DNA of 40,750 nucleotides from Chloroflexota bacterium (GTDB lineage Bacteria; Chloroflexota; Dormibacteria; CF-121). The DNA is taken from the NCBI GenBank assembly GCA_005880395.1, contig VBHQ01000039.1:1-40750 (forward strand), read 5' to 3'. Positions 35,490-40,750 of the stretch are shown here, one piece after another; position 1 is the stretch's first letter; the number at the start of each line of letters is the position of its first letter. The position numbers and the translations under genes are program-made. The notes beneath the pieces were generated by a model. That model saw nothing but the letters and a program-made list of their open reading frames with translations, was not told where the DNA came from and made no database searches.

Positions 35490-35855
35490 TCAGCCAAGCG
35501 GAATTCCGACGCCTGCAACGCCCAGTGGACCGGCATGACGGGTCAGCATTCCGACGAGAAAGCCGAGCACCCGGTCAGCCGATGGGCCATCCGAAATGGT
35601 GGCGAGCAAGGTGGGTTCCGGGTTGCGGAAGGCGCCCAGGGCGCCGGCACGGGCGGCCCGGCTGAAGCTGGGGGTCCCGGCCGGAACGAACGTCACGCGG
35701 ATCTTGGTATATCGATCGCCCGAATGCACGAGCGTGAGGGGAGCCTTCTTCTTGACCTCCCACGCGCGAATCTCCTCGTTCTTGAGCCGGCGTTGCAGCG
35801 TGCTGATCAGTTTCTTGCCGCCTGGATCGCGATCGGCGTAGATCGCCACCTGCAC
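35490..35855 (-). CDS. Uncharacterised 121-aa protein
   Basis: No family recognised. It starts MQVAIYADRDPGGKKLISTL, a beta-strand plus acidic loop reminiscent of Toprim-like or nucleotide-binding strands, though the DxD of Toprim is not present. Then comes RRLKNEEIRAWEVKKK, a strand pair (KIRVTFVPAG) and a glycine-rich C-terminus (FLVGMLTRHAGPLGVAGVG). There is no signal peptide. TATCAT ends 6 nt before GTG 35855. It is convergent with DUF2127 (3 bp apart) and lies just downstream of the inositol-lipid cluster on the same strand, 22 bp after the phosphotransferase gene begins its 3' end, but its own -10 box suggests separate transcription. Confidence 0.6.
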   Translation of the reverse strand: MQVAIYADRDPGGKKLISTLQRRLKNEEIRAWEVKKKAPLTLVHSGDRYTKIRVTFVPAGTPSFSRAARAGALGAFRNPEPTLLATISDGPSADRVLGFLVGMLTRHAGPLGVAGVGIPLG

Positions 35856-35877: not shown

Positions 35878-36612
35878 TTAAGTCTTGCCCAGGTCCTCGA
35901 AGAAGCGTCGCATCGCGGTGCGAACCGGCTGGGAAGGGGTCGGCTGGGAAGGGTTCGGATGGTTCAGCGGCGGTGACGCGGGAAGGCCTCGAAGCGCGCG
36001 CAGCTCCTCGCGATTCTGCTGCCAGACAACCCAGACTCTCTGGACCGCGGTGAAATTGGTGCCGATCGCGAGGATGACGAGCGCCACCGTCAAGGGCGTC
36101 GCTCCGCCGATCTTGAGGCCCATCGCCTCGAGCAGCAGGCCGGCGACGATGATGACGACGCGCTCCGGACGAGCCAGGATGCCAACATCGCAGGTGAAGC
36201 CGAGGCTTTGTGCCCGTGCCCGAACGTAGCTGACCAGAAACGATCCGGCGAGCGCGACCAGCACCACGATCGGCCGCCAGCCGTCGTGACGGTCGAGGAA
36301 ATAGATCAGGATGCCGAGGTAGACGACGCCCTCCGAGTAGCGGTCGACCGTCGAGTCGAGAAAGGCGCCGTAGCGATAGACCTTTCCCGCCGCCCGGGCC
36401 AGCGCGCCATCGAAGACGTCGAAGAAGCCGGCGAAGGCGAGCACGATGCCGCCCGGGAGCAGCAGGCCGACGGCGACCAGCAGCGCCCCCAGCCCTGTGA
36501 TGACCAGGCCGAAGAGCGTGAGCATGTTGGGCGTGAGCGGCGAATCGCGGAAGACCCCCACGAGACGCTCCGCCCAGCGCCGGACCCAGGCCTGGAATTT
36601 TTGCGTGAACAT
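35878..36612 (-). CDS. CDP-alcohol phosphotransferase, probable phosphatidylinositol-phosphate synthase
   Basis: A 244-aa integral membrane enzyme. The CDP-alcohol phosphotransferase signature is complete: D65-x2-D68-G-x2-A-R73-x8-G82-x3-D86-x3-D90 (DVFDGALAR to GAFLDSTVD). It transfers an alcohol phosphate onto CDP-diacylglycerol. The SPLTPNMLTLFG lead-in and GAFLDSTVDR match the actinobacterial/archaeal PIP synthase branch (PgsA1), which uses inositol 3-phosphate. An ino1 gene and PimA-like gene in the same cluster support this. Phosphatidylglycerophosphate synthase is the alternative. The start overlaps the glycosyltransferase stop by one base (TGATG). The C-terminal tail has a repeated Pro/Ser/Gln stretch from a 15-bp duplication. 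Confidence 0.88.
   Translation of the reverse strand: MFTQKFQAWVRRWAERLVGVFRDSPLTPNMLTLFGLVITGLGALLVAVGLLLPGGIVLAFAGFFDVFDGALARAAGKVYRYGAFLDSTVDRYSEGVVYLGILIYFLDRHDGWRPIVVLVALAGSFLVSYVRARAQSLGFTCDVGILARPERVVIIVAGLLLEAMGLKIGGATPLTVALVILAIGTNFTAVQRVWVVWQQNREELRALRGLPASPPLNHPNPSQPTPSQPVRTAMRRFFEDLGKT
35926..35955. repeat. Two 15-bp tandem repeats in the phosphotransferase tail
   Basis: CGGCTGGGAAGGGGT is followed at once by CGGCTGGGAAGGGTT. On the minus strand they encode NPSQP and TPSQP, a short Pro-rich repeat in the cytoplasmic tail of the CDP-alcohol phosphotransferase. Confidence 0.7.
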
Positions 36613-37769
36613 CAGCGGGGACTCAGGCTGGGCTCGAGCCGAACCGCAGCCGCCGGCTGAGCGGAATCAACCGCCTTCCGGTAGACGTCGGAGACCTGGT
36701 CGATGACCCGCTCCCAATCGAAGTTCCGCGCCTTCAGCTGGCCGGCCCGCCCGAGTTCGCGGCGCAAGTCGGCATTGCTGATGAGCGTCTGCAATGCGTA
36801 GGCGAGCTGGCGACGGCTTTTGCGTTCGACCAGCAGCCCCTCGCGGCCGTGGTCGACGACTTCGCGGAAGCCGTCGATACTGGTGGCGACGATCGCCTTG
36901 CTCGAGGCCATCGCCTCTAGCAGCACGATGCCGAAGCTCTCGTCGCCGGTGGCCGGTGAACAGAAGATGTCGCAGCTCGCGTAGTAGCGGGGCAGTTCCG
37001 CCGGGTCGACGTACCCGGCCATGACCACGTCCTCGAGCTGCTTGCGAGCGATGAAGTTGCCATACCAGCGGCGCAGCGGCCCGTCGCCCACGATGATCAG
37101 GCGAAGGTTGGGATACTGCGGCTTCAGCTGTTCGTAGGCGCGCAAGAGATAGCCGAGGCCCTTTCGATACTCGAGGCGGCCGACGAAGAGGAGGTTGCAC
37201 ATGCCATCCCGAAGATCGGGGAAGGGCTGCTGGTTCTGGAAGCGATGGAAGTCGATTCCGTTGGGAATCACCCGGTAGTCGCCCGGGAAGTAATGGCGGA
37301 CGAACTCACGGGCCGGATTGGAGACGGCAATTCGAGCATGCAGCCGCCTCACATAACGCTTGAGCAGCGGTTTGCCGTAGTAATAGCCGACGTTGGAGCG
37401 GGCGAAGGCGTGAAAGGTGCCGACGTTGATCGTGCGCGAGAAGCGAAGCGCCGTGATCGGTAACACCGGCATCAGCGGCTCGTGGTAGTGGATGACGTCG
37501 AAGCCGCCCTCGCGCACCATGTGCTTGATCCGGTTCGTCAGGTGCAGCCCGACCGTGATCCGGGCGACCGATCCGTGCATCGGAATCGGAAAAGGCCGGC
37601 CCACCCGAACGAAGTCGTGGTCCCGGTCGGACAGCTCCCGGTCGGAGCAGGGAGCGAGCACGGTGACGTCGTGACCGCGCCGGCGCAACCCCGCCGCCAG
37701 GTAGCGGACGTGCTCGGTAACGCCGCCTGGGTGCGCGAAGTCGTAGGCGGAGACGAGCGCGACCTTCAT
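36612..37769 (-). CDS. pimA: GT4 glycosyltransferase, PimA-like phosphatidylinositol mannosyltransferase
   Basis: A 385-aa GT-B glycosyltransferase. In PimA the enzyme adds mannose from GDP-mannose to the inositol of phosphatidylinositol on the inner face of the membrane. Here MKVALVSAYDFAHPGGVTEH opens the fold with the GGV acceptor loop (15-17), HYHEPLMP (94-101) corresponds to PimA HLHEP, VIPNGIDFHRF follows the linker, and GDESFGIVLLEAMA contains the EX7E pair E277/E285 that matches PimA. A basic amphipathic stretch near 80-90 (NRIKHMVREG) may aid membrane binding. The assignment rests on motifs plus neighbours (PIP synthase downstream, acyltransferases and ino1 upstream); a related hexosyltransferase cannot be excluded. 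Confidence 0.8.
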   Translation of the reverse strand: MKVALVSAYDFAHPGGVTEHVRYLAAGLRRRGHDVTVLAPCSDRELSDRDHDFVRVGRPFPIPMHGSVARITVGLHLTNRIKHMVREGGFDVIHYHEPLMPVLPITALRFSRTINVGTFHAFARSNVGYYYGKPLLKRYVRRLHARIAVSNPAREFVRHYFPGDYRVIPNGIDFHRFQNQQPFPDLRDGMCNLLFVGRLEYRKGLGYLLRAYEQLKPQYPNLRLIIVGDGPLRRWYGNFIARKQLEDVVMAGYVDPAELPRYYASCDIFCSPATGDESFGIVLLEAMASSKAIVATSIDGFREVVDHGREGLLVERKSRRQLAYALQTLISNADLRRELGRAGQLKARNFDWERVIDQVSDVYRKAVDSAQPAAAVRLEPSLSPR

Positions 37770-37827: not shown

Positions 37828-38553
37828 CTACCCGCCGCAGACAGCGCGCACTGCGGAGCGGCCGGCGCGCGCCCAGTTACGGCCGATCCGGCGGAACTTC
37901 AGTTGCGCAATGCGGCGATGCGTCAAGAAGTCCCAGTATTCCCCGTGCGCCTTGGTCTGGCCCGCCAGCACCGACGTCTTCAGGTCGTGTGCCGATTTGC
38001 CATCAAAGGTCGTGTAGCCGGTGCCAATCCCTTCCAGATGATGGCTGTCGGAACATCCCACCTCGGGCAGGTGAAAGCGGCTTCGGTTGAGGCGGTCGAT
38101 CTTGGCCGCGCAGGTGCGTCCCGCCACCGACGGATTGAAGGTCTCCACCGCATCGAAGTAGATCTCAGGCGAGGCATTCTTCATGATGCCGTCGAAGGAC
38201 CGGTAGCCGATGCTGCGGGTTAGCATGGAAAACGGGTGGACCGCGATCGCCAGGCCGCCCTGCTCGTGGATCTTGCCGATCGTCCAGTCGAGGGGACGCC
38301 ACATCGGGATCGGCTTGTCGAGGAAGAGCCCCAGCAGGTGCCCATGCAGCGTCGTGATTTCACAGCCCATGAAGACGTCGAACGGGTATTCATTCGCCAG
38401 CTCCATCGCCTCATAGCTGCCGGTCAGCCGGTCATGATCCGTGATCGCCACGGCGTCGAGGTCCGTCCGATCGCGCACGTAGTCGAGCACCTCTCGCACG
38501 GTGGCCGTGCCGTCGTTGAGCGAGGTGTGCATATGAAAGTCGGCTTTGCCCAC
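37828..38553 (-). CDS. PHP-domain metal-dependent phosphoesterase
   Basis: A 241-aa PHP-fold phosphoesterase. Metal ligands are visible as H7 and H9 (DFHMHT), D39-H40-D41 (ITDHD), E65 (GCEITTLHGH, with H70/H72), H in IAVHPF, and the late pair in CSDSHH. Members hydrolyse phosphate esters such as histidinol phosphate or nucleoside bisphosphates, and many are unassigned. The length and GTG start (GGAGG 5 nt upstream, overlapping the acyltransferase stop) are well supported. Its place inside an inositol-lipid gene cluster makes a sugar- or inositol-phosphate substrate attractive, but this is inference. In actinobacteria inositol phosphate is made into PIP directly, so an inositol phosphatase step is not strictly needed. 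Confidence 0.88.
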   Translation of the reverse strand: MGKADFHMHTSLNDGTATVREVLDYVRDRTDLDAVAITDHDRLTGSYEAMELANEYPFDVFMGCEITTLHGHLLGLFLDKPIPMWRPLDWTIGKIHEQGGLAIAVHPFSMLTRSIGYRSFDGIMKNASPEIYFDAVETFNPSVAGRTCAAKIDRLNRSRFHLPEVGCSDSHHLEGIGTGYTTFDGKSAHDLKTSVLAGQTKAHGEYWDFLTHRRIAQLKFRRIGRNWARAGRSAVRAVCGG

Positions 38554-38563
38554 GAGATCCTCC

Positions 38564-39481
38564 TTAATCGCCCACAGCGGCTTGCGCCGGCGGTGACGGG
38601 ATGGTGACGGCCGGGACGACGGGCTTCTCCGGCCAGATGGGCTCGAGCACGTGCCACTGGTCCGGATACCTCTTTATATACCGTTCAAACGTCGCCAGGA
38701 TCCGTTCCATGGCACCCCGGACGTCGGCCTCGTGATCTTCACTCGGGGTGAGGAAAAAAGGCGCCTCGCCGACGGCGACGTAGGCATCATGGCGGTCGCG
38801 GATGCAGAAAGCCGGCAGGATCGGCGCCCCGGTCTTGAGCGCGATCTCCACCGGGCCGGTCGGAAACTTGGCCGAGCGTCCGAAGAAGCGAAACCAGGCT
38901 CCGGTATTGAGGATGTCGCGGTCCATCGCCAGGACCACCATGCGGTGGTCTTTGAGGAGGCGCATGATGTCCCGAGCACCGGTGCGGCTGAGCGGAATCA
39001 CCCGGATGCCCAGTCGCGAGCGCAATCGATAGACATGATCGAAGAGTCGTCGGGGTTCGATCTGCTCGACCATGATGCCGATTTCACCGAAGGTTGCCGC
39101 CCAGCTGGCCGCCGCCAGCTCCCACGAGCCCATGTGGGGCGCGACCACGATCACGCCGCGTCCAGCCGCCATCGCGGTGTCGAGATGTTCCACGCCGATC
39201 GGGGTCAGCAGCGCGCTCAGCCGCCCTTTTTCCATCCGGGGAATCTTGAAGAAATCGATCCAGGCCTTGCAATAGTTGAGCCAGTTTCGCCAGGCCAGCT
39301 TGCGCAGCTCCGGAGCCGGCATGTCCGGCAAGACATGGTGCAGGTTCGATTCGAGCGCCTTTCGCTGCCTCGCCAACAGGGGAAAAGCCAGGGTGCTGAC
39401 GATCACGCCGATGGCGTAGGCAACCCGGCGCGGCAGCCGCGCGATCACCGCCTCAATAAGCCGGAATCCCAGGTAGGTCAT
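38564..39481 (-). CDS. Lipid A acyltransferase-family protein (HX4E), PatA-like
   Basis: A 305-aa acyltransferase of the HtrB/LpxL-PatA family (LPLAT). The active site is H116-MGSW-E121, the HX4E form. Other features are IARLPRRVAYAIGVIVSTLA at the N-terminus, RKALESNLHHVLPDMP, LAMDRDILNTGAWFRFFGRS, and [17 protein letters not shown]. In mycobacteria PatA acylates the mannose of phosphatidylinositol mannosides using acyl-CoA. Here it would do so on the product of the PimA-like enzyme. ATG 39481 is chosen for the 4-bp ATGA overlap with the preceding acyltransferase gene. No lipid A genes are present. Confidence 0.88.
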   Translation of the reverse strand: MTYLGFRLIEAVIARLPRRVAYAIGVIVSTLAFPLLARQRKALESNLHHVLPDMPAPELRKLAWRNWLNYCKAWIDFFKIPRMEKGRLSALLTPIGVEHLDTAMAAGRGVIVVAPHMGSWELAAASWAATFGEIGIMVEQIEPRRLFDHVYRLRSRLGIRVIPLSRTGARDIMRLLKDHRMVVLAMDRDILNTGAWFRFFGRSAKFPTGPVEIALKTGAPILPAFCIRDRHDAYVAVGEAPFFLTPSEDHEADVRGAMERILATFERYIKRYPDQWHVLEPIWPEKPVVPAVTIPSPPAQAAVGD

Positions 39482-40356
39482 GAGGGATCGAGCGCCGGCT
39501 GCATTGGTGATCCTGGCGTCCCCGCCACCTTCTGCGGACGCCAGACCGGCAAGAACACGAGCCACTGATCGGGCTCGCGGCGGATGATGCGCTCGAAGAA
39601 CTGCACGATCCGCTCCGTCGTCAGCTGCACGTCCCGCGCGGTGTCGCCGGTGCGGCTGACCTCGATCGGCTCCTCAACTTCGGCGACATAGAGATTGTCC
39701 GGTTGCCGGCGAATCCATACCGGAAGAATCGGTGCCCCGGTCTTCAAGGCGATCGCCGCCGGGCCGGAAGGGAAGGTTGCGGGGCGGTTGAAAAATGGCA
39801 CGCGCACGCCACGATCGCCACTGTACAGGTCACTCGCGAGCGCGACCACTTCGTTGCGCGCAAGCGCCTTGAGAATCTGGCGGAGACTTCCGGGGCCGAG
39901 CCCGATCATCTTCATCCCGATCCGCTCCCTGGAGGCGACCACCAGTTCGTTGAGCCCGCCGCTCGGTAGCTCGTTGGTCACCGCACTGATTGGATAGCCG
40001 TATACGGCGGAGGCCGCCGCCAGCATGTCCCAATTGGAGACATGAGCGGTGACGACGATCGCCCCCTTGCCCTGAGCGAGCACCCGATCGAGTCGCTCCC
40101 GTCCTTCCGGCCGCACCATGCGGCGGATCTCTTCCGGTTTGAGCGTGAACATCAGCATGAAGTCGGCGAACATCTTGAAGTAGTTGCCGAAGGCATGCCG
40201 TGCCGTCCGCTTGACCAGTCCGTCGCTCGGTGGCCGGCCCAGCACCTGACCAAAGTTCTCGAACGTGACCCGGCGCCGGCGCGGCATCAAATAGAAGGCA
40301 CAACGACCGGTGACCGCCGCCAGGGGATAACGAACCCCGGGCGGCAGTACCCGCAT
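39478..40356 (-). CDS. Second lipid A acyltransferase-family protein (HX4D)
   Basis: A paralogue of the following gene: 292 aa from ATG 40356, with the catalytic H105-VSNW-D110 (HX4D). Shared features are [38 protein letters not shown] and TGAPILPVW, ending VFLPVWRP. The N-terminus starts in the middle of the usual amphipathic lead ([18 protein letters not shown]). The reading frame upstream (GNWV) is cut by a stop at the junction with ino1, so about 10-30 residues are probably missing. PatA-like proteins often come as pairs of HX4D/E paralogues in this kind of cluster; the two may acylate different positions. Confidence in family is high and in the true start low. Confidence 0.86.
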
Positions 40357-40750
40357 GACCCAGTTCCCCCGTCAGTGTATTGAATTGGGGGTGACTTCAT
40401 GAAGTAGGCGGATGGCCCCTCCAGCGCCCCGCCCAGCTTGCGGTCAAGGCCGAGCTTGCAGCAGCGGATGGCATCGATCACCACCCCGGCTGAGTTCGGC
40501 GAATCCCAGACCTCGAGCTTGAGCTCAACGTTGAGGGGCACGTCGCCGAAGGAACGGCCCTCGAGCCGGATGTAGGCCCACTTGCGGTCGCCCAGCCAGG
40601 GCACGTAGTCGGAAGGACCGATGTGGATGTTTTCGGCGCCGATGTCCGCCTTCATCTGCGACTTGACGCTGTTGGTCTTCGAGATCTTCTTGGAGGTCAG
40701 CCGCTCGCGCTCCAGCATGTTGAGGAAGTCGGTGTTGCCACCGAAGTTCA
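40287..40750 (-). CDS. ino1: Myo-inositol-3-phosphate synthase, C-terminal part (runs off the window)
   Basis: This NAD-dependent enzyme converts glucose 6-phosphate to 1D-myo-inositol 3-phosphate, the precursor of phosphatidylinositol. The visible part reads [20 protein letters not shown], then [49 protein letters not shown] and ends [15 protein letters not shown], all typical of the actinobacterial/archaeal Ino1 branch (GGNTDFLNM, KTxSV, DSPNSAG). The 5' end lies beyond 40750. After QYTD (about 40378) the frame continues into GGTGSCGYC and beyond, which is not family sequence and overlaps the next gene by 70 bp. The natural C-terminus is probably lost at a junction error. Confidence 0.9.

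Follow-up and report, generated by a model that had tools for sequence, protein, structure and literature searches.

A PHP phosphoesterase encoded with phosphatidylinositol phosphate synthase in Chloroflexota is a candidate PIP phosphatase of inositol lipid synthesis

Work on PgsA1 of Mycobacterium tuberculosis assigned R155, R195 and R94 to the binding of inositol phosphate, and in actinobacteria the 3-phosphate of phosphatidylinositol phosphate (PIP) is then taken off by a phosphatase described in 2019 as 'yet-unidentified' (PMC6506517). In Bacteroides thetaiotaomicron, the PgpA-like protein BT_1525 was recognised as a PIP phosphatase by genetics, its deletion causing PIP to accumulate (PMC9246714). 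An earlier note on the DNA studied here had called this the step without a well-established gene, which agrees with the 2019 account of actinobacteria but does not extend to Bacteroides. The open literature that we searched contained no later identification of the actinobacterial enzyme, no PHP protein linked to inositol lipids and no description of inositol lipids in Chloroflexi. We know of no PHP enzyme that acts on a membrane lipid. Here, we describe a PHP phosphoesterase gene that is a strong candidate for this phosphate-removing step, for which related bacteria have no identified gene. It lies in a stretch of 40,750 nucleotides (the window) from a Chloroflexota metagenome-assembled genome (MAG) whose nearest named relatives are the 'Chloroflexi bacterium isolate CF_n' MAGs.

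The gene belongs to a cluster on the minus strand of the window whose first gene is INO1, for inositol-3-phosphate synthase, and whose last is that of a PIP synthase (PIPS). Only the C-terminal part of INO1 is present (40287-40748; PF01658, 1e-25; TIGR03450, 3e-58), since the right window edge truncates the gene, whose frame is open to 40287. Two overlapping genes for LpxL/PatA-like acyltransferases follow, AT1 (39478-40356; PF03279, 8e-42), with the PIM acyltransferase model PRK07920 as its top NCBIfam model at a score under the cut-off, and AT2 (38564-39490; PF03279, 4e-44), with PatA as its best solved matches (4e-35). The PHP gene (37828-38553) comes next and is separated by 58 bases from the gene of a PimA-like GT4 mannosyltransferase (36612-37769; PimA 2gej, 3.5e-57), and the last gene encodes a PgsA1-type CDP-alcohol phosphotransferase (35878-36612). 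The Shine-Dalgarno sequence AAGGAGG of the PHP gene (38554-38569, minus strand) runs through the TAA stop codon of AT2 and precedes a GTG start codon (GGCGATTAAGGAGGATCTC-GTG). The position between the acyltransferase genes and the PimA-like gene, and the ribosome-binding site inside the preceding stop region, are thus as the earlier note had described them. Since the mannosyltransferase and AT2 have PimA and PatA, respectively, as their best matches among solved structures, the cluster is predicted from its genes to encode a pathway of the phosphatidylinositol mannoside (PIM) type. The PHP gene sits within the gene set by which soil and other Chloroflexi are predicted to make PIM lipids. A small open reading frame of 121 amino acids downstream of pgsA (35490-35855, minus strand) has no match in Pfam; it is conserved at the same place in loci of the window's family, f1, and is perhaps a member of the operon. 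In many Chloroflexota families, an ArsR-type winged-helix regulator of ∼114 amino acids is encoded ahead of INO1 or PgsA (for example, L034:2597-2941), and such a gene is expected just past the right edge of the window.

The PHP protein has 241 residues and matches PF02811 (32.2 bits, cut-off 26.4) and the PHP_C family PF13263 (30.4 bits, cut-off 21.3); these are its only Pfam domains, and it has no PF04608, the family of BT_1525 and PgpA. All ligands of the PHP superfamily (HxH, D, H, E, H, H, DxH) are there, as H7, H9, D14, H40, E65, H72, H106, D169 and H171, which bears out the complete metal site that had been noticed before. Among 39 aligned homologues, H9, D14, H40, E65, H72, H106, E137, D169 and H171 did not vary. 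Some cluster PHPs of families f45 and f32 (L122, L131, L136, L160) have glutamine in place of H7, the first histidine of HxH (DLQIH/DLQLH). An AlphaFold2 model with a mean pLDDT of 96.1 has the distorted TIM barrel of the PHP fold, matching 2anu, 3e38 and 7ug9, and its closest solved fold is the PHP protein TM0559 (2anu; E 6.8e-11, TM 0.66-0.71). Compared with its congeners, the gene differs synonymously at 89-102 codons and non-synonymously at 27-34 (∼3:1), and it is coding and under purifying selection. The model ends in a long amphipathic basic helix of 31 residues (209-239, encoded at 37837-37929 on the minus strand; DSSP), with a hydrophobic moment of 0.61, equalled in none of 2000 shuffles, and a charge of +8 in the tail. 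The tails of other cluster PHPs are mostly positively charged, but many are less amphipathic, the basic amphipathic tail being strong in f1 and weak in several of these proteins, so that membrane contact through this helix is only a suggestion from the model. In f21 and other families, AT2 and PHP seemed to be fused within open frames of 550-860 residues, a reading that we rejected because the upstream part of these frames is an arginine-rich translation of the wrong frame; the true PHP start in such loci lies just before a GKAD motif.

To see how far the PHP gene is linked to the cluster, we surveyed Chloroflexota, with the 40 nearest relatives of the window's genome followed by a sample of 301 genomes across the phylum. 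Among the 40 relatives, every f1 contig that reaches the relevant place carries PHP in the cluster, which gave the impression of a linkage confined to this family. The phylum-wide sample overturned it. PHP matches at 1e-15 were present in 232 of the 301 genomes, and the matches of 40-50% identity from other classes occupy the same slot and are closer than the matches of the window's own class. At least 24 families of the phylum carry the gene in the cluster (f1, f6, f11, f14, f16, f18, f19, f20, f21, f22, f30, f32, f33, f35, f38, f42, f45, f56, f60, f63, f70, f77, f78 and f80), in two gene orders, with PgsA either last or ahead of INO1. Among the 135 PHP places listed, 68 lie no more than 4 kb from PimA or 9 kb from PgsA, compared with ∼1 expected at random by our own arithmetic. 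In f19, a mini-cluster consists of an ArsR-type regulator, PHP and PgsA with no INO1, acyltransferase or PimA gene adjoining (L119, L145, L146, L150 and L151; a further locus, L149, is cut before PHP and begins with it), suggesting that PHP is tied to PIP synthase and not to mannosylation or acylation.

In a maximum-likelihood tree of 84 PHPs, the cluster PHPs, those of f1 and f19 included, fall into one clade (support 92/95), in which the f1 proteins group with f16 and f22 and not with the f3 genes. The same clade holds stand-alone PHP genes of f3, f8 and f40, showing that the gene can sit elsewhere in the genome, and near relatives from f15, without the cluster, lie just outside it. A motif N140-x-S-x-A-G145 is common to cluster PHPs, with G145 in 96% of them and in 0% of the other PHPs compared; as a comparison of related sequences, it provides a lead for mutagenesis and not proof of a substrate. 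In f2, a more distant PHP paralogue adjoins a PAP2_3 membrane protein that is likely to be a lipid phosphate enzyme (L059:1062-2027, L060:6603-7619).

The cluster's PIP synthase indicates where a phosphatase would be needed. The best solved match of the window PgsA is M. tuberculosis PgsA1 (3e-27), to which it aligns over the catalytic region with residues R94, S132, Y133, R137, R152, R155 and R195 kept, while its score of 144 is below the cut-off of 170 of the equivalog model NF045883. Because the residues that bind inositol phosphate are kept, the enzyme should be of the PIPS type and its product should be PIP, in which case a PIP phosphatase would be needed before PimA. Apart from PHP, no gene of the cluster is phosphatase-like; the cluster also encodes the other early steps of the pathway, and PHP is encoded with PIP synthase and INO1 in the window and in other families. 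We infer from context and fold, with chances that we judge to be about even, that the window PHP is the PIP phosphatase of PIM synthesis. INO1 would form D-myo-inositol-3-phosphate (Ins-3-P), which PgsA would join with CDP-diacylglycerol to give PIP; the metal centre of PHP would hydrolyse the 3-phosphate of PIP, leaving phosphatidylinositol (PI), onto which the PimA-like enzyme would transfer mannose, and the two PatA-like enzymes would add acyl chains. The basic C-terminal helix may bring the soluble PHP enzyme to the membrane. This reading builds on what was observed, the order of the genes, their linkage across families, the complete metal site of PHP and the PIPS-type residues of PgsA, and supposes that PIP is the substrate and that the metal site is active.

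We considered whether known phosphatase families could fill this step. PgpA, as the family of BT_1525, was rejected as an alternative, since PF04608 was found in none of 58 Chloroflexota genomes by a search that was positive in the controls E. coli and B. subtilis; that family gives these genomes no phosphatidylglycerophosphate phosphatase either. Of 76 genomes with a PHP cluster, 17 lack inositol monophosphatase (PF00459), which is thus not the general answer there, and 11 of 62 PHP-less genomes lack it too (our own counts). There is hence no anticorrelation, and we dropped it as a complementary alternative. These gaps bear on a different reading, which we regard as somewhat unlikely, in which PHP acts on another ester of the pathway, either releasing free inositol from Ins-3-P, dephosphorylating phosphatidylglycerophosphate or turning over the head groups of PI or PIM at their phosphodiester. 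The genomes lacking PF00459 would benefit from a substitute, the absence of PgpA leaves phosphatidylglycerophosphatase without an assignment to that family, and activity on phosphate monoesters as well as on diesters is known among PHP enzymes (RNase AM, AMP phosphatase). Yet the loss of PF00459 follows no complementary pattern, free inositol is not a substrate of PgsA1-type enzymes, and of the two CDP-alcohol phosphotransferases in these genomes, it is the PIPS-type PgsA to which PHP is linked. Soluble Ins-3-P is less favoured than PIP, because its removal would compete with PgsA for the enzyme's own substrate. The earlier note had named the production of free inositol, the dephosphorylation of PIP and the degradation of the head group side by side; after the comparison, the PIP phosphatase is the best-supported of them, by linkage across the phylum, the pairing of PHP with PIPS alone in f19 and the conserved PIPS residues, and the other two are less favoured.

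The distribution of PHP is patchy. Although the earlier note's expectation that the gene would be retained beside pgsA1 and pimA held in the families listed above, it failed in the closest sisters of f1: among the 40 nearest relatives, the cluster of f2, f3 and f4, families of the window's class, runs INO1-AT(-AT)-PimA-PgsA and lacks PHP. By itself, this result would have refuted the note's reading, and it makes PHP a patchy and not an obligate part of the cluster. Nor does PHP occur wherever PIPS does in the phylum, since no neighbouring PHP was found in f2-f4, f9, f10, f13, f17, f28, f37, f43 and f55. Those lineages must use something else, but we found no candidate for a replacement phosphatase beside PgsA in the PHP-less clusters, where the neighbours are DUF1611, endonuclease IV, Lgt, aquaporin-like and other proteins. 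The PIPS families without PHP, the lone clade members, the f15 relatives outside the cluster and the uneven basic tail all count against a PIP phosphatase, as does the fact that no PHP enzyme known to us has a membrane lipid as its substrate. The absence from the nearest sisters and many other families would also suit a passenger or regulator with a general or unrelated function that had settled in the cluster and could be lost at no cost, as in f2-f4. We consider this improbable, as the same slot is kept in 24 families and two gene orders, the ligands are intact, the gene is under purifying selection, and the pairing with PgsA alone in f19 is not what one would expect of a passenger. Cleavage of a carboxyl ester, for example by a deacylase trimming acyl-PIM, is very improbable, because the CehA/McbA carbaryl hydrolase model NF038032, although the best NCBIfam model of the protein, is matched at 64.4 bits, under its cut-off of 80, and PHP, downstream of two acyltransferase genes in the window, lies beside PgsA without acyltransferases in f19.

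Distant PHP relatives on plasmids were found only in haloarchaea. In three of five haloarchaeal plasmid records, the PHP gene (L184:6001-6639, L185:5986-6666, L188:4986-5666) overlaps, or starts no more than ∼60 bases after, the gene of a UbiA-type decaprenyl-phosphate phosphoribosyltransferase (DPPR synthase), which scores above the cut-off of NF008977 in L185 and slightly below it in L184. A gene for a lysylphosphatidylglycerol-synthase-like membrane protein lies downstream. In mycobacteria, DPPR synthase makes polyprenyl-phosphoryl-5-phosphoribose, the phosphate of which is removed next, and the haloarchaeal PHP is a candidate for a DPPR phosphatase. It is conceivable, and we put it forward tentatively, that this PHP subfamily consists of phosphomonoesterases of lipid head groups, acting on PIP in Chloroflexota and, in the case of the distant haloarchaeal relatives, on polyprenyl-phosphoryl-5-phosphoribose beside its synthase. 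The haloarchaeal proteins are only 30-35% identical, which supports a common theme and not orthology.

As a soluble candidate with a confidently predicted fold and phylum-wide linkage to PIPS, PHP makes the conversion of PIP to PI directly testable. If our reading is true, it would extend to a membrane lipid the substrate range of a superfamily that is known mainly for acting on nucleotides, amino-acid precursors and phosphotyrosine, and would provide a further, unrelated solution for the PIP phosphatase, beside the PgpA-like BT_1525 of Bacteroides and whichever enzyme serves actinobacteria.

Comparison with known systems places the window PHP as follows. BT_1525, encoded in a cluster with MIPS and PIPS, has the same proposed step from PIP to PI (PMC9246714), but it belongs to the PgpA family, unrelated to PHP, and it has the support of a deletion, whereas PHP is a candidate from gene context and fold. 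RNase AM/TrpH and the 3',5'-nucleoside bisphosphate phosphatase (9etk, 7ug9, 2yb1) share the PHP fold and ligands, 9etk with a profile match of 2.5e-23. These proteins, however, have ∼280-290 residues and an insert of ∼80 residues between the metal motifs, which gives two matched stretches, whereas the window protein has no insert, and it missed the equivalog cut-offs for RNase AM and nucleoside bisphosphate phosphatase by far (38.4 bits against 400 and 32.2 against 375). TM0559, the closest fold, is similar in size, but it has only ∼20% identity to the window PHP, and its function is unknown; we know of no lipid genes linked to it. The mycobacterial PIM cluster (pgsA1, patA, pimA) has PIPS, PatA-like and PimA-like genes together, as in the window; it presumably also holds HIT and NUDIX genes, with INO1 located elsewhere, and to our knowledge it has no PHP gene. 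The haloarchaeal PHPs (L184, L185, L188) differ in context, being archaeal, linked in three of the five plasmid records and part of another lipid pathway, but they likewise come directly after an enzyme whose lipid product has a phosphomonoester in its head group.
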